This document shows, piece after piece, positions 4,069-15,206 of a DNA stretch of 64,000 nt. The notes under the pieces were generated by a model that made no database searches, had not been told where the DNA came from, and saw nothing but the letters and a program-made list of their open reading frames with translations. This DNA comes from an uncultured Tateyamaria sp. (GTDB taxonomy: Bacteria; Pseudomonadota; Alphaproteobacteria; Rhodobacterales; Rhodobacteraceae). A program made the position numbers and the translations under genes. The stretch covers positions 812,501-876,500 of the forward strand of contig NZ_CANNES010000001.1 in NCBI RefSeq assembly GCF_947503705.1, in the 5' to 3' direction. Numbering within the stretch: position 1 is the stretch's first letter; the number at the start of each line of letters is the position of its first letter.

Positions 4069-4118
4069 TTTTGGCGACCCCGGCAGGATTCGAACCTGCA
4101 ACCTGCCCCTTAGGAGGG
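4069..4118. repeat. attL: 50-bp copy of the tRNA-Arg 3' end
   Basis: These 50 bases are identical to 15127-15176. They cover the 3' part of the tRNA-Arg gene from the anticodon loop to the encoded CCA, plus three bases beyond it. The match stops abruptly at 4119, where the sequence changes to that of the element. This is the displaced tRNA fragment left by site-specific integration, so it marks the left end of the element. Confidence 0.95.
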
Positions 4119-4132
4119 AACCGTTCATAGCG

Positions 4133-5227
4133 CTATTCCTTCTGTGATTTCTTATTCTTGGGTGTTTGTACAGCGTCCGTCTGTACATGGTTTGTACGAA
4201 AACGAGCCCTGACATCGGCCTCATCCGTCTCGGCATGAGCATAGATGCGCATGGGCAAATTGGGGTCTGACCAGCGGCCAGCCTTGGCTGCGGTGACTGG
4301 ATCGACTCCCTGTCTGACCACCAATTCAGTAAAGAACCCGTGCCTTCCTGCCGGATGTGCCGAAAGGTATGGGATGCCTGCACTCTTGCAAATCGTCTTC
4401 CAGCGCGTGTTGTAACCCGTCGAGCTTCCGTAACCGAAAACACGCGGCTTCATGAATTTGCCGGTCTTGCGGTTCTTAGGACGCTTCGGCGGTAGCGCCA
4501 GAAGCTCGTCCATCATCTGAGGCGAAACGGTGATCCAGCCTTCGGGATGGCCTTTCTGTGCTTTCACTCGAACCTTGTTCTCAGCGGGTCGCAGATCGTC
4601 AGGCTCTATTGAGACAGCCTGATCGATCCGCGCCGCCGTTTCGAACATGAACCTGACCAAAGCGGCGTTGTATGGATCAGCAGCTCGACAGAACGCCTCG
4701 ATCCATTCCTTGTCGGCGGGCTTACGTTCAACACGGCTGGTTTTTCCTCGCCGCTTATCCTGGGCAATGCGCTCGAATTTGTCATAGGGCTTAACCCGGA
4801 TCAGCGGTGTTCCTTCCAACTCGTGCGCGTTGTTGATGACCGCACTCGCTGGCGTCACGATTTCGCGCCACCAAGTATCGGTCGAGGCCTTGGGCTTAAG
4901 TTTAGGGCCAAGTCCCTTCAGAAGCGCACCAGAGATCGCACCTAAAGGCATGTCGCCAATCTCTTCGACAATCGGGATCAACTGCTTCGCCGTCTTCGGG
5001 GAGGCATTGTAGAGCATGATTGCATCCGAGAACGTCTTGCTCGGTTCATCACCAACAACATGGCGGCGTATCTGAAGCTCGGTCTCGCGGTTTATCCAGT
5101 CCCGTGCGCCTGCTTCTGTAGATGCCTTAGTGCTTCGCCTGTATGGGCCTGCGATTGGCCTGCCGTTGTACTCGACCCAGCCCTTAGCCCAGTAGAAGCG
5201 ACCCCTCTTGTAGATTTGGAGCGGCAT
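4133..5227 (-). CDS. int: Tyrosine recombinase (site-specific integrase)
   Basis: This 364-residue protein should insert and excise the element at tRNA-Arg. The C-terminal catalytic half has the box I arginine near residue 200 (in ETAARIDQAV), a box II block near 290-300 (AHPAGRHGFFTEL) and the nucleophilic tyrosine near residue 329 (MRIYAHAETD). In box II the residue three before the arginine is not histidine; the histidine is one position earlier, a variant arrangement. The start at 5227 is supported by an AAGGAGG ribosome site 7 bases upstream that lies inside the preceding gene. The gene ends next to attL, as is usual for integrases of tRNA-targeting elements. It is the last gene of an rhh-xis-int operon. 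Confidence 0.93.
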   Translation of the reverse strand: MPLQIYKRGRFYWAKGWVEYNGRPIAGPYRRSTKASTEAGARDWINRETELQIRRHVVGDEPSKTFSDAIMLYNASPKTAKQLIPIVEEIGDMPLGAISGALLKGLGPKLKPKASTDTWWREIVTPASAVINNAHELEGTPLIRVKPYDKFERIAQDKRRGKTSRVERKPADKEWIEAFCRAADPYNAALVRFMFETAARIDQAVSIEPDDLRPAENKVRVKAQKGHPEGWITVSPQMMDELLALPPKRPKNRKTGKFMKPRVFGYGSSTGYNTRWKTICKSAGIPYLSAHPAGRHGFFTELVVRQGVDPVTAAKAGRWSDPNLPMRIYAHAETDEADVRARFRTNHVQTDAVQTPKNKKSQKE

Positions 5228-5439
5228 GCCTGGCCTCCTTCAAAAATCTTGTCGATCTGCGCGGGTGTGATCAGCATGGTCCGCCCAAGACGGTAGAATG
5301 CACCGGTGTCGTTGGCCCGCTCACGCAATGTCCTCTCTGAGATGTCGATGCCCAAACCGGACATGACTTCGACCCATTGGGCGGGCGTCTTGCCCTGCGC
5401 CAGGATTTGCGAACATTCCGATTTCGCGTTGTCAGCCAT
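5092..5439 (-). CDS. Small DNA-binding protein, candidate excisionase
   Basis: This 115-residue protein begins at MADNAKSEC; a GAGG ribosome site precedes it, and the longer upstream frame to 5508 lacks support. The segment near residues 20-75 (alternating helix pattern with ISERTLRERA and YRLGRTMLITPAQIDKIF) resembles a winged or AlpA-like helix-turn-helix, as found in excisionases. Its start sits two bases after the stop of a 54-residue ribbon-helix-helix gene, and its last 136 bases overlap the integrase start in another frame. Position between a regulator and int makes an excision-directionality role likely, but I cannot name the family with certainty. The overlapping C-terminal tail is rich in small polar residues and may be dispensable. 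Confidence 0.65.
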   Translation of the reverse strand: MADNAKSECSQILAQGKTPAQWVEVMSGLGIDISERTLRERANDTGAFYRLGRTMLITPAQIDKIFEGGQACRSKSTRGVASTGLRAGSSTTAGQSQAHTGEALRHLQKQAHGTG

Positions 5440-5440
5440 A

Positions 5441-5605
5441 TCAAGCGCCTCTTTGCGGGGTCTGGGCCTGTTCCCCCTTGGACATCTCAGCGCGAAGGCA
5501 ACTGACAATCTGAGCGCTCTGTGAACGAAGGTTCTTCTTGGCCTCAGCTTCTAGCCACGCTTTCACATCTGCTGGAATGATTAGTTTGAACTGTTTGGCT
5601 TGCAT
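5441..5605 (-). CDS. Arc-type ribbon-helix-helix regulator (54 aa)
   Basis: A short gene read on the minus strand from ATG at 5605 to TGA at 5441. The protein opens with MQAKQFKLIIPADVKAWLEA and continues with a helical segment containing RSQSAQIVSCL. The pattern of a short strand (QFKLIIP) followed by two helices is that of Arc/Mnt repressors. A GGAGGG ribosome site lies 6 bases before the ATG, and the stop is two bases from the next start, so it is the first gene of an rhh-xis-int operon. It is clearly similar to the divergent gene at 5685 (QFKL, IPAD and K at the same positions). It probably binds the palindromes between the two genes and controls excision. Confidence 0.8.
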   Translation of the reverse strand: MQAKQFKLIIPADVKAWLEAEAKKNLRSQSAQIVSCLRAEMSKGEQAQTPQRGA

Positions 5606-5614
5606 GACGTCCCT

Positions 5615-5673
5615 CCAGTCTACTGGAACATCAGGACATAAAATGTCCGTTTATCCAAGGACAAATTATGTCC
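5615..5673. promoter_or_regulatory. Divergent operator region with three palindromes
   Basis: The 79-base gap between two divergent ribbon-helix-helix genes holds two related 15-bp palindromes. They are GGACAT-aaa-ATGTCC at 5634-5648 and GGACA-aatta-TGTCC at 5659-5673, with centres 25 bp apart. A third, different palindrome CCAGT-ct-ACTGG lies at 5615-5626. Paired sites at this spacing suit cooperative binding of small dimeric repressors. I infer that they are operators for one or both flanking regulators; no promoter boxes are clear enough to call. Confidence 0.65.
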
Positions 5674-5684
5674 ATGGTGGCCCT

Positions 5685-5996
5685 ATGAGTGAAAAAACGC
5701 CGATTCAGTTCAAGCTGATGATACCCGCGGACCTAAAAATCCGGGTCGAAGAGATGGCCTCTTTGAATAGGCGCAGCCTGTCACAAGAGATCGTGGCTGC
5801 TCTTGAAGAGCAGTATCCGGCTCCAAACACATCTGAAGCTGCTGGTATCGAAGCCAGGGTACTTCTTTGGTTGGCGAGAAGAATACGGAAAGGCTCCCCA
5901 AAGCCTGGTTCACTACGCGACCGACAGGCAGCTGCCTACGAGGTTTTGGCCGGCAGATCGATTGCCCAAAACTCCAATGATGGTGATGAATTATAG
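5685..5996 (+). CDS. Arc-type ribbon-helix-helix regulator with C-terminal tail
   Basis: The protein has 103 residues if it starts at MSEKTPIQFK (5685); the upstream in-frame extension to 5538 overlaps the operator and the divergent gene and is unlikely. Residues 6-45 match the Arc-family fold: strand QFKLMIP, then helices around ADLKIRVEEMA and RSLSQEIVAALEEQ. It resembles the divergent 54-residue protein and has an extra C-terminal region (about 45-103) that may mediate oligomerisation. By position it should repress, or compete with, the divergent rhh-xis-int operon. Its own control is likely through the two GGACA palindromes just upstream. Confidence 0.82.
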   Translation: MSEKTPIQFKLMIPADLKIRVEEMASLNRRSLSQEIVAALEEQYPAPNTSEAAGIEARVLLWLARRIRKGSPKPGSLRDRQAAAYEVLAGRSIAQNSNDGDEL

Positions 5997-6150: not shown

Positions 6151-6768
6151 TTGGCCAAAACCAATATGGGGCAGAGCATGCCGATTCCGAATCAGGCTGT
6201 CGTCAAGCCGATCATTGACGAAATTCGCGACGAGATCGTCGCTGCTATTCATGAGGCATGGGACGACTGGATGGCCAGTGATTATGTTGCTGTCTGGCGT
6301 TGCAAGCGCAGCCGAGCAAACTTCGTTTGGGAACAGATCGTCGACCGGGCGCACGCCGCACTGATGAACTTTGAAAATGTTCACATCATCGAGGCGACTG
6401 AAACGATGAAATTTCTGATCCACGATCAGGTTCTTTTTCGGTTCAAGAAGGCTGACGAAGCAGGCCGCACCGCAAACGTGGCCACCCAAATGGCGATGGC
6501 CTTCCACGACCACGATCAAGACTTGTTTGGACTGCCGGAAGTTCAGCGCGTCGAAGTAGTCTACAAACTGAACAAGCTAGAGACAGCGATTGCCGACATC
6601 TGTGTTGTGGCCCGCAATGGCGATGCCGTGACTTGGGAATACAGCCTTCTCGACGCCGAAAGTGTGGTCGCGCCGTTGCCCGTGCCCGAACCGGAACCCG
6701 TTCGGTCCGCTGCCAAGATCGTCAAACTCAAAGGCGTATCTGACGAACGCAAAAAGCGCGACAAGTAA
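6151..6768 (+). CDS. Hypothetical protein paired with XRE-ImmA regulator
   Basis: The 205-residue product is not a family I recognise. The start shown is TTG; an in-frame ATG occurs at 6166 and either could be used. The first 150 residues look like a compact alpha/beta domain with many helices (for example EIRDEIVAAIHEAWDDW). Then come a proline/glutamate linker near 172-182 (PLPVPEPEPV) and a lysine/arginine-rich tail (DERKKRDK). Its stop overlaps the start of the XRE-ImmA gene by one base (TAATG), so the two are translated together. The pairing suggests it is the target, toxin or partner controlled or cleaved by the ImmA-type protease; this is inference. Confidence 0.7.
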   Translation: MAKTNMGQSMPIPNQAVVKPIIDEIRDEIVAAIHEAWDDWMASDYVAVWRCKRSRANFVWEQIVDRAHAALMNFENVHIIEATETMKFLIHDQVLFRFKKADEAGRTANVATQMAMAFHDHDQDLFGLPEVQRVEVVYKLNKLETAIADICVVARNGDAVTWEYSLLDAESVVAPLPVPEPEPVRSAAKIVKLKGVSDERKKRDK

Positions 6769-7838
6769 TGTCTGGGGAGTTTAATCAAGACCTGCTGCGG
6801 ATCGCGCGGCAGGCACGTGGATGGAGTCAGTCCGAACTTTCGCGTCGCTCTCACGTATCACAGGCAAATATCTCGAAGCTCGAAAATGGCCTCATTGGGC
6901 CGACCGAAGATGTTCTTGAAAACGTTAGCGATGCGCTTGGTTTTCCTCAAAACTTCTTTTTCCAGAACGATCGAGTCATTGGGTTGCCTATGAGCGTTCA
7001 ATACCGGAAGCGAGCGAGTGTTGGTCAGAAAGCCATTGAACGCCTAGAAGCAGAGCTAAACATCAGAATTTTACACATCCGGCGCCTACTAGACGCGGCT
7101 GAACTTGAGCCAGAACTACCGCTGCCGCGACTGGACGTTGACGAATACGGAGGCGATCCGGAGCAGATCGCAGAACTTGTTCGGCGGACTTGGCTGGCGC
7201 CAAGCGGTCCAATCCGGGATCTTGTCGCTTGGGTAGAACGGGCTGGATGCATCGTTGTCCACTGCGACTTCGCCGCTTTGAAAGTGGATGGCTTCACTGT
7301 CCAGATTTCCGACATGCCTCCCTGCATTTTCCTGAACCGAAATCAGCCGGCCGACCGCCAACGGTTCAGTCTCGCGCATGAGCTTGGACATGTTGTAATG
7401 CACCGCGTACCATCACCGGAAATGGAGGATGAGGCGAACGATTTTGCAGCTGCTTTATTGATGCCCGCACGTGACATCCGCCCGCATCTATCTGGCCGCC
7501 GTCTTACAATTCAACGGCTCGCTGGGTTGAAGCCAGTTTGGCGGACATCAATGGCCGCGCTGCTCGTTCGGGCAAAGACTATCGGTGCGATAACTTCTAA
7601 CCAAAGTCAGTATCTTTGGAGGCAAATGAGTTCGATGGGATACCGTCGCTCGGAACCTCCCGAACTTGAGTTTCTGGCAGAGGAACCCAGTGTATTACCT
7701 GAAATCATCAGGCTCCACTTGGAAGACCTAGGATACGGCCTTTCTGACTTGGCCAACGCTTTACACTCGACAGAAAATGACCTGCGAACACTTCATCCTA
7801 TCCCAGGTACTTCGAGGCATCTGCGTGTAGTCAAATAG
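6768..7838 (+). CDS. XRE-family regulator with ImmA/IrrE metallopeptidase domain
   Basis: This 356-residue cytoplasmic protein has an N-terminal XRE helix-turn-helix (about 10-62, with WSQSELSRRSHVSQANISKLENG). A zinc-peptidase domain follows, with HELGH at 204-208 and a downstream glutamate in DEANDFAAALLMP. Proteins of this build are known as repressors or derepressors in mobile elements: the ImmA part cleaves a partner repressor, often after damage. It is co-translated with the unknown gene before it. Two readings are possible: an element-control switch acting on excision, or a toxin-antitoxin/defence pair with the upstream protein. All key metal residues appear intact. Confidence 0.88.
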   Translation: MSGEFNQDLLRIARQARGWSQSELSRRSHVSQANISKLENGLIGPTEDVLENVSDALGFPQNFFFQNDRVIGLPMSVQYRKRASVGQKAIERLEAELNIRILHIRRLLDAAELEPELPLPRLDVDEYGGDPEQIAELVRRTWLAPSGPIRDLVAWVERAGCIVVHCDFAALKVDGFTVQISDMPPCIFLNRNQPADRQRFSLAHELGHVVMHRVPSPEMEDEANDFAAALLMPARDIRPHLSGRRLTIQRLAGLKPVWRTSMAALLVRAKTIGAITSNQSQYLWRQMSSMGYRRSEPPELEFLAEEPSVLPEIIRLHLEDLGYGLSDLANALHSTENDLRTLHPIPGTSRHLRVVK

Positions 7839-7906: not shown

Positions 7907-8116
7907 TTAGCATCCAAGTTCGCGTAGTTCATCAATCAGTTTTCGCCGGACCAGTTTTGCTTCGTCAGCATCAAGGTTTGAACGTTGGTTAGGCTGACTA
8001 CTCTCCAATTGGGTAGTTTGAGCGCGTCCTTCACAGTTGCCTTGAGTCGTGTTGAAGACAAACATGAATTCAGGCTGATCTCGGCGTACAGGTTGTTTTT
8101 TTGCCATCTTTATCAT
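7907..8116 (-). CDS. Small hypothetical protein coupled to AvcD-like deaminase
   Basis: A 69-residue basic, glutamine-rich protein whose ATG overlaps the deaminase stop (ATGA), so its translation is coupled to the gene before it. An internal ATG three codons in (MAKKQPVRRDQ) is an alternative start. Residues 49-66 (DADEAKLVRRKLIDELRE) should form an amphipathic helix; the middle is polar and probably flexible. I recognise no family. The tight coupling suggests a subunit, regulator or antidote of the deaminase. In the studied Vibrio system the inhibitor of the deaminase is an RNA, so a protein partner here would be different. Confidence 0.6.
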   Translation of the reverse strand: MIKMAKKQPVRRDQPEFMFVFNTTQGNCEGRAQTTQLESSQPNQRSNLDADEAKLVRRKLIDELRELGC

Positions 8117-9678
8117 CCCGCCTGTTTGTCATCCGGTCGCTGCTCGACGCTCTCTATGTGATGTATAACGCGTTTTTCGTGCGTTGTGAATCCATCCATT
8201 GGGGGCGGAAGGACTGGAAGTGCGTTTTTCTTGTCCGCCACGCTTGCCCTTCCATCGATCTTACGTTCGATTCCGTGGTGAAACAGCTTCAACACACTGT
8301 CTGGGCCGACACCCTCGTACTGTAGAAATGCAACCTTCTTGCTCTTCCCGTCAGTCGTTGTACCTATGGAATCGCTGTGGAGATCTAGGGCGAGGCTCTT
8401 GGCGTACGGTTCAACGTAGTAAACCGTCGCTATTCCTGCCGCCACAATGTGGCGAGCACAGTTGTGGCACGGGAATGTAGTCGTGTACAAAGTGCCGCCA
8501 ACCATACCGGTTTTTCCGGCACGACCAGCCGACACAATCGCTTCCATTTCAGCGTGAATAGAGCGGCTGTACTCAATTAAGTCTTTCACCGGTGTCTCAA
8601 TCAGTGCAGCCCGTAGACCGTTCTTGTTAGCGCCCTTTACAAGCAATCCGTTATCCGAGAGCTTCTTGAAAATTTTCTCGTATAGTTCTTCCTTCTTTCT
8701 GTCATTGTGGCAGAGCTTGCCGCCCCACAAGTAGCACCGATGGTCGTCCTCACCGTCCTCAACAGAATACAGCCCGCCAAGTGCTTTCGGTACATCATTC
8801 CACCCAACACTAATCAGTTCGCCATCTTCGGAATAAATGGCCGCGCCGACTTGTCTTGAGAGACACGCAGACTTGCTGGCTGCTGAGACAGCCGCGTACA
8901 TTCCCGCTTCGTCAGTAGTTGGCGTGTGCACAGAGATATTGAAAACAATCTCTAAATATCGCTCGATCACGGACTTTAGACGTGTATCATTTTCTCCGTC
9001 GTTTCTGACGAAGAAGTCAGAGAGATAGGCTGTTTTGCTAACTTTCTGACCATGATCACCTTCTTTATCGTTCTCATCTCTCGTAAAAATCCCTGACAGT
9101 TCGTCCTTCTCAATCCCTTGAGACCGTAGCCGAGCCTCGCGGACTACCTCAGGCGCGAAGACCGTGAATTGCCAATAAATTCCACCGTAAACCCTCCGTA
9201 AGAGTTTTGTCTCTTTCGGGTGCTTCAAGGAATCGATGATCGTTGCTTGGCGTAGACGTTTGGGTTGCGGCACTTGCTTTTCTTCGTCGTAACCGCCTCC
9301 AACTTTTCTTTGAATCGCGATCTTCTCTATTGCTTTTGCTGCTATGTAATCTTCTCCAAAACTATCCCTTAAATAAGTGCCGACGGCCTGTAGGTCCTTG
9401 ATCCTGTCTGAGCCCGATAGAGAAGGAGAGCCTTTGGAGGTCTTAGCGGCATTTTCGCGGATCAGATCGCTAGCCTTTAATATTTCAACGCTGTAGCCGT
9501 AGTCTGTTTCCAAGATGCTCTTTAGTTCCAATGCGCTTCTTGAAACACCAGCACCAACGGCTCCAACCATCCCAATCACTAGCTCTTCAGTTGGCCGTGA
9601 GATGTCTTCAGCCGGTGCGGTTGATTCGAACTGATCTACTACCGATGTTGGTTTGGTTGCTGCTGATTGCTTGGCCAT
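8113..9678 (-). CDS. AvcD-type antiphage dCMP/dCTP deaminase with P-loop domain
   Basis: The protein has 521 residues in two domains. The N-terminal half has a glycine-rich nucleotide-binding loop (GMVGAVGAGVS, 36-46) of the P-loop kinase-like type, lacking the usual lysine. The C-terminal half is a cytidine-deaminase fold with zinc motif HAE at 375-377 and PCHNC at 403-407 (Cys404, Cys407). This order and size match AvcD, a defence protein that deaminates deoxycytidine nucleotides during phage infection and starves phage replication; that role is established for the family and inferred here. An alternative is a housekeeping dCMP deaminase, but those lack the N-terminal domain. A coupled 69-residue gene follows. 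No obvious AvcI-like RNA could be recognised upstream. Confidence 0.85.
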   Translation of the reverse strand: MAKQSAATKPTSVVDQFESTAPAEDISRPTEELVIGMVGAVGAGVSRSALELKSILETDYGYSVEILKASDLIRENAAKTSKGSPSLSGSDRIKDLQAVGTYLRDSFGEDYIAAKAIEKIAIQRKVGGGYDEEKQVPQPKRLRQATIIDSLKHPKETKLLRRVYGGIYWQFTVFAPEVVREARLRSQGIEKDELSGIFTRDENDKEGDHGQKVSKTAYLSDFFVRNDGENDTRLKSVIERYLEIVFNISVHTPTTDEAGMYAAVSAASKSACLSRQVGAAIYSEDGELISVGWNDVPKALGGLYSVEDGEDDHRCYLWGGKLCHNDRKKEELYEKIFKKLSDNGLLVKGANKNGLRAALIETPVKDLIEYSRSIHAEMEAIVSAGRAGKTGMVGGTLYTTTFPCHNCARHIVAAGIATVYYVEPYAKSLALDLHSDSIGTTTDGKSKKVAFLQYEGVGPDSVLKLFHHGIERKIDGRASVADKKNALPVLPPPMDGFTTHEKRVIHHIESVEQRPDDKQAG

Positions 9679-15126: not shown

Positions 15127-15176
15127 TTTTGGCGACCCCGGCAGGATTCGAACCTGCAACCTGCCCCTTAGGAGGG
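15127..15176. repeat. attR: 50-bp repeat within intact tRNA-Arg
   Basis: Identical over 50 bases to attL at 4069-4118. It overlaps the 3' half of the complete tRNA-Arg gene, so integration left the tRNA gene functional at this end and put the duplicated fragment at the other. Confidence 0.95.
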
Positions 15177-15206
15177 GGCTGCTCTATCCAGTTGAGCCAC
15201 GGGGCC
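15130..15206 (-). tRNA. tRNA-Arg (CCU anticodon)
   Basis: On the minus strand a 77-base tRNA folds fully. The acceptor stem is GGCCCCG with CGGGGTC; a D arm with GGCTCAACTGGATAGAGC, an anticodon arm with loop CTCCTAA (anticodon CCT) and the T arm GGTTCGAATCC follow, and CCA is encoded. It is the insertion site of the integrative element, whose attR covers its 3' half. It reads AGG codons. Confidence 0.95.

Follow-up and report, generated by a model that had tools for sequence, protein, structure and literature searches.

Two short genes, here called A and B, stand back to back on opposite strands of the window (the whole 64-kb stretch of DNA that was analysed), with two similar palindromes between them (Table 1). 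The original prediction placed a 54-residue ribbon-helix-helix (RHH) gene and a divergent paralogue here, with QFKL, IPAD and K at matching positions. BLASTP bears this out, as 18 of 33 residues are identical (E 2e-9) and QFKL-x-IPAD-x-K aligns in register. Comparison of profiles that include relatives of each protein gives a probability of 98.1 and an E of 7e-14.

Table 1. Features of the A/B locus and of the surrounding element (window coordinates)
Feature	Position	Strand	Description
Gene A	5441..5605	-	54-aa RHH protein; first gene ahead of P0003 and the integrase; Arc/Cro-like role proposed
Gene B	5685..5996	+	103-aa RHH protein, divergent from A and extended at its C-terminus; proposed maintenance repressor (Mnt/CI-like)
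Shine-Dalgarno of gene A	5611..5616	-	GGAGGG, read from the sequence
Third palindrome	5614..5627		TCCAGTCTACTGGA; not conserved, probably not an operator
Operator candidate 1, A-proximal	5634..5648		GGACATAAAATGTCC; 15-bp palindrome, GGACA-N5-TGTCC
TTTATCCAA	5650..5658	-	site where 11/22 distinct pairs have TTGCGTCAA; matched by position
Operator candidate 2, B-proximal	5659..5673		GGACAAATTATGTCC; 15-bp palindrome, GGACA-N5-TGTCC
P0003, putative excisionase	5092..5439	-	weak match to PHROG 1840 excisionase, E 0.0044
Tyrosine integrase	4133..5227	-	Pfam PF00589, E 1.5e-8
att repeat, left	4069..4118		50 bp, identical to 15127-15176
att repeat, right	15127..15176		mostly within tRNA-Arg(CCT), 15130-15206

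The gene pair and the element that carries it

Profile matches support the placement of both proteins among the Arc/Mnt-type RHH repressors. The gene A profile reaches Mnt at 6.5e-5 and Arc at 9e-4, and the gene B profile reaches them at 2.4e-3 and 0.018. AmrZ is the top solved relative of both (1.1e-7 for A and 6.4e-8 for B), and the PDB entries matched are 1mnt, 1arq and 3qoq. The Pfam Arc match of B falls under its cut-off (15.5 versus 20.4). Structure prediction, proposed as a check beside alignment, gave no relevant or significant fold match: A was modelled as a monomer without a strand (pLDDT 76.9, pTM 0.37) and matched nothing relevant among known folds, and the B model (pLDDT 67.3, pTM 0.35) matched 1baz, 3qoq and 1par with probabilities of 0.90-0.96 but with an E of 0.59 or worse. 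Thus the RHH assignment rests on the sequence profiles.

A single base separates gene A from P0003, and the integrase gene follows. The claim that A heads a xis-int operon therefore stands as gene order, with a weak excisionase call. P0003, with its 3' end, and the integrase gene, with its start, overlap over 136 nt in different frames (5092-5227), as they also do in loci L040 and L041. The att repeats delimit an element of ~11 kb at tRNA-Arg, whose cargo includes a relaxase (PF03432, barely over its cut-off at 25.3 versus 24.6), a NikA/MobC-like protein and a HigB-like toxin with an HTH partner. With a tyrosine integrase, direct-repeat att sites at a tRNA gene and a relaxase, it qualifies as an integrative mobilizable element. 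The prediction called bistable control of excision unusual for such an element; a search of 21 other loci, a set that lies outside L140-L159, for relatives of its relaxase gave none. The gene next to B, 154 bp on, is a PHROG 15813 gene that adjoins a gene for an RmrA-like XRE-M78 regulator (6768-7838, ~770 bp past B; PADLOC RmrA 1.1e-62); these two (6151-7838) are perhaps a RosmerTA-like pair. The element also encodes an anti-phage dCTP deaminase (8113-9678; NF041025, 460.5 bits, cut-off 400).

Protein identity to the window is 88-98% for the integrase, P0003, A and B of the closest relatives, L040 from Litoreibacter and L041 from a Rhodobacteraceae genome (the same DNA as L039). At their integrase end all three carry an att-like core; they also share the palindromes, the A-proximal palindrome of L040 being one base short, and they differ in cargo. 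No tRNA was called within the fetched L040 and L041 stretches, and the other window proteins are missing from them, except for the HigBA pair in L041. Because the block from integrase to B is kept while these other proteins are missing, it resembles a conserved core around which cargo is exchanged in a small family of elements. The named relatives suggest a host within Rhodobacterales.

A still smaller arrangement occurs beside tRNA-Cys, where a block of ~1.9 kb holds an integrase gene, an ORF and the divergent A and B genes (L042-L045, L048, L050-L058). It recurs in several genera with common flanking genes and two integrase families. Of the 16 loci scanned, 14 had a called tRNA-Cys (the others being L049 and L059) and none had a right-hand direct repeat of at least 13 bp; L054 carries ~2.7 kb extra between B and the conserved flank.

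Paired palindromes and their conservation

The two 15-bp palindromes, predicted from the letters at 25-bp spacing, are where they were said to be. They start 25 bp apart, and candidate 2 ends 11 bp ahead of the B start codon. When the A/B intergenic region was shuffled 200 times with its dinucleotides kept, no shuffle reached their paired-palindrome score of 20/20. GGACATN3ATGTCC has 16 matches in the window, fewer than the shuffled mean of 27.8; matches with zero or one mismatch occur at the two candidates only, and the remaining 14 have three mismatches each. The exact sequence of candidate 1 occurs once in the genome. A third palindrome, included in the prediction, exists, overlaps the Shine-Dalgarno sequence of gene A (5616-5611) and lies ~21 bp from candidate 1, near the place of a third GGACA site in L046, L089 and L097 (21-24 bp). 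It is absent from L040 and L041, and an operator role was rejected for it.

Conservation of the palindromes in related elements, whose lack would have counted against the prediction, was found between divergent A/B pairs. Among 394 family genomes, protein searches found relatives of B in 22 and of A in 12, with the two adjacent and divergent in eight. A gene-blind scan of the same genomes for GGACAN5TGTCC-N7-13-GGACAN5TGTCC matched eight genomes at nine loci, and in seven of the eight the doublet lay between divergent A and B genes; these seven are all of the divergent-pair genomes except G088 (L047), which has degenerate GGACA sites only. The eighth match, G094 (L066), has no RHH gene nearby, and the reversed pattern gave none among the matches listed. 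On the shuffles, the mismatch scan of the window and this 394-genome scan, a chance origin of the palindromes was rejected.

Viral contigs contain the same doublet in 39 stretches, and in four of them it is flanked by a divergent RHH pair (L089, L097, L106, and L083, whose DNA is that of L046). The other 35, some of which lie at contig ends, showed no RHH gene within 700 bp, so one or more other systems with this palindrome exist. Examples of doublets that lack an RHH gene are L070, L075 and L100. A search of viral contigs with protein B, which picks up close relatives only, returned none, though L083, L089 and L097 encode some. Relatives of B were found in one of 50,697 phage records (Pyei1) and in two plasmid records, from Leisingera (L163), with no divergent gene ahead of the B relative, and from Paracoccus, with no annotation at that position. 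At order level the A/B profile was found in 48 of 390 genomes, versus two of 385 at class level, one of these being the window's own.

Forty-seven loci, selected for a protein or palindrome match, were then compared. A divergent A/B pair is present in 44, the exceptions being L059, L156 and L159, which like the Leisingera plasmid have a single RHH gene. The 44 pairs reduce to 22 distinct ones at 85% identity. In 18 of the 22, no more than 3 of 200 shuffles equalled the paired palindromes; L058, L147, L150 and L151 failed. Leaving aside L089, L097 and L106, which had been found through the palindrome itself, the count is 15 of 19. The palindrome sequence varies by lineage and includes GGACA..TGTCC, TGGCA..TGCCA, GTCAC..GTGAC and AGCAC..TTGCT, among others. 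Among loci of the GGACA group with at least two exact sites, the start-to-start distance of the two B-proximal operators is 25 bp, except in L106 (27). In this group 14-22 nt lie between the end of the last operator and the start of the B domain match.

Candidate promoter elements were looked for between the two genes. In 11 of the 22 distinct pairs, TTGCGTCAA lies 44-70 nt from the A side, and its reverse, TTGACGCAA, resembles a -35 box directed towards A that may serve as a promoter element. At this position the reverse strand of the window reads TTGGATAAA, and the TTGACG box of other pairs is absent; a promoter consensus scan found one site (9 of 12 positions), with 0.6 expected. Some pairs (for example L150, L153, L154 and L155) have TTGACG towards A followed by a TATANT-like box with the operator between them, at a spacing of 19-21 nt (counted by eye), which is unusually long. 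A MerR-like reading of these pairs, with the operator within that spacer, was set aside because the window copy has no TTGACG.

Genes downstream of A

ORF lists and Pfam searches place an integrase gene within ~2 kb of A, on its A side and strand, in 11 of the 22 distinct pairs (the window, L042, L048, L058, L089, L097, L150, L152, L154, L155, L157); no integrase gene was seen near A on its strand in the other 11. Three of the 22 instead have an antirepressor-type gene on the A side, namely L047 and L109 (Rha plus ANT/KilAC, with ANT PF03374) and L148 (ORF6N, PF10543). In L060 and L046 the integrase gene lies on the strand of A at ~4.6 and 5.1 kb, with portal or other genes between, in L151 and L153 it lies on the far side of B, and the L147 pair lies at a contig start, following an ORF that resembles the putative xis of L042. 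Neither type of gene occurs in the stretches viewed of L106, L149 and L158. Portal or terminase genes lie near the pair in L046, L060, L150, L155, L157 and L158, the portal matches of L155 and L157 being under the Pfam cut-off. In Paracoccus phage vB_PyeM_Pyei1 (L109), the annotation names the two proteins Arc-family and Arc-like; their genes lie among tail genes, and a KilAC/Rha gene follows the short RHH gene. By these comparisons the A/B module is shared with prophages, with A ahead of integrase or antirepressor-type genes, and the presence of a divergent RHH module at the integrase is well supported.

The same recurrence of integrase or antirepressor-type genes counts against a reading in which A, B or both are architectural RDF-like recombination factors near att, or RHH antitoxins. 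An RDF-like role would suit the position of A beside the xis-int genes, but beyond the two operators no window site has fewer than three mismatches. For the antitoxin role, RHH proteins can be antitoxins, A has a weak FitA-like match (14 bits versus a cut-off of 27), and the PHROG 15813 gene past B may encode a toxin; the toxin would, however, be that of the RmrA-like pair, given the gene that it adjoins, and the PHROG 15813 gene was not found in the fetched DNA of L040 and L041. Roles of this kind are very unlikely.

Probable shared operators and candidate switches

RHH proteins contact DNA through their strand, as established for Arc. Across the distinct pairs, strand residues that would face DNA are identical within pairs at 34 of 63 positions, versus 19.6 with partners shuffled (0 of 20000 shuffles). 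Helix residues within pairs also agree (231 versus 212 shuffled; 109 of 20000), so common descent of the pairs accounts for some of the strand agreement. Both strands carry Q-x-K in nine distinct pairs, and an exact GGACA-N5-TGTCC occurs in seven of these nine versus none of the 13 others (p 2e-4). The association holds without L089, L097 and L106 (4/6 versus 0/13, p 0.004) and with the window also left out (3/5 versus 0/13, p 0.012). In pairs without Q-x-K the strands are alike and the palindromes varied, so the strand is not the whole explanation. These motifs are most simply read as binding of A and B to the same sites, of one operator type.

Binding of the palindromes by some other protein of the element, such as the XRE-M78 regulator, with A and B acting elsewhere, would have to account for this tracking of GGACA sites with the A/B strand motif. 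Palindromes of roughly 15 bp are common targets of XRE regulators, and the XRE-M78 gene is close to B. Nevertheless L041, L042, L043, L045 and L046 keep the palindromes and A/B with no XRE match in their fetched DNA, and L044 has a weak match (31%) that lies elsewhere. The XRE-M78 protein was judged an unlikely binder, given the fetched DNA of these relatives that keep the palindromes, and the reading as a whole is very improbable.

The two sites may not be equivalent. At the B-proximal operator 13 of 14 half-sites have A as their sixth base, whereas 7 of 12 have T at the operator that follows (Fisher p 0.009, from seven and six distinct pairs, phylogenetically uncorrected), which suggests unequal affinities but does not prove bistability. 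A tree built from helix residues (21 pairs, midpoint-rooted, omitting L147, whose A is truncated) places 20 of 21 A proteins in one clade with support 0.87; this clade also holds the B protein of L106, and the A protein of L109 falls among the B proteins. Since the tree separates A from B almost cleanly, they are probably old paralogues.

These observations bear on whether the pair forms a switch at all. If A and B, as homo- or heterodimers, simply repressed both promoters through the same two sites, the outcome would be low, steady integrase, with neither bistability nor a division between maintenance repressor and early regulator. Such co-repression fits one operator type for both proteins, near-identical sites, Q-x-K in both strands, and the presence in the window of two sites only, where L046, L089 and L097 have three; it fits less well with two paralogues that stay separate through the diversification of pairs, and with the sixth-base difference. 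It is possible but doubtful. Bistable control, as originally proposed, is not supported, and the apparent common operator type would also permit co-repression.

Several known systems resemble parts of the locus. In phage P22, Mnt keeps both arc and ant repressed, while Arc in turn inhibits mnt and has a moderating effect on ant (PMC11016777); immI itself sits inside the late operon (PMC8022706, PMC2629481). Like immI (mnt-arc-ant), the window has two Arc-type RHH repressor genes on opposite strands, with operator-like sites between them as judged by sequence, and the shorter gene precedes those that would be controlled. The likeness extends to relatives: the Pyei1 and L047 pairs precede a Rha/KilAC antirepressor-domain gene, and Pyei1 has the immI layout with its pair among tail genes. 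Unlike immI, the window has P0003 and the integrase gene, not ant, behind its short RHH gene; moreover, P22 Arc and Mnt use different operators, whereas one palindrome type is seen here. The predicted Arc/Mnt-like divergent switch is supported by the Arc/Mnt-type profiles, the conserved palindromes, the A-side integrase in 11 of 22 pairs and the immI-like relatives, and departs from P22 in its apparent single operator type.

If the operators are common to both proteins, the logic may be nearer to lambda CI/Cro than to Arc/Mnt. At the lambda right-operator switch, the paralogous repressors CI and Cro are encoded by divergent genes and act on an array of similar palindromes. A/B modules likewise have paralogous divergent repressor genes and an array of two or three similar palindromes, 21-27 bp apart and with small site differences; a common binding of this array by A and B is suggested by the strand motifs. 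Unlike CI and Cro, which are HTH proteins, A and B have an RHH fold by sequence profiles, and no known inducible domain was recognised in B. AmrZ, listed in the PDB as 'Alginate and motility regulator Z', is the top solved relative by profile and is a chromosomal Pseudomonas regulator rather than a mobile-element switch. TprA of ICE PAPI-1 is likewise an RHH regulator of the Arc-like kind, carried by an integrative element whose transfer it controls, but it activates pilus and transfer genes together with NdpA2, and no divergent pair at an integrase operon is described in the available part of its source (PMC8565334).

The evidence leans towards A and B as Arc-type RHH regulators on a common operator array, with B as maintenance repressor and A as early regulator, and control of xis-int by the pair is likely. 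By the logic of Mnt and Arc, both proteins would bind the array between their divergent promoters, and B, the long protein encoded divergently from int, would keep A, P0003 and int, as one transcript, silent while the element is integrated. Upon entry into a cell that lacks B, or upon loss of B, A-P0003-int would fire, and the integrase and putative excisionase would be made. The short protein A, encoded ahead of both, would then act like Arc or Cro, turning down B and later its own promoter. A more elaborate version is tentative: A and B may be an RHH-fold counterpart of CI and Cro, paralogues with opposite site preference that compete for two or three operators to set the integrated or the excising state. 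The module would then be swapped among Rhodobacterales phages, minimal integrase islands and the mobilizable element, its proteins and operators changing specificity together, and would be wired to an antirepressor or to xis-int.

Excision control is the key decision of an integrative element, and the open-licence papers searched did not describe any integrase with a divergent RHH pair beside it. If the proposed reading is true, a module of the P22 secondary-immunity type would serve as a portable integrase switch in these bacteria, and its several natural operator sequences would form a collection for studying how paralogues and operators change specificity together.
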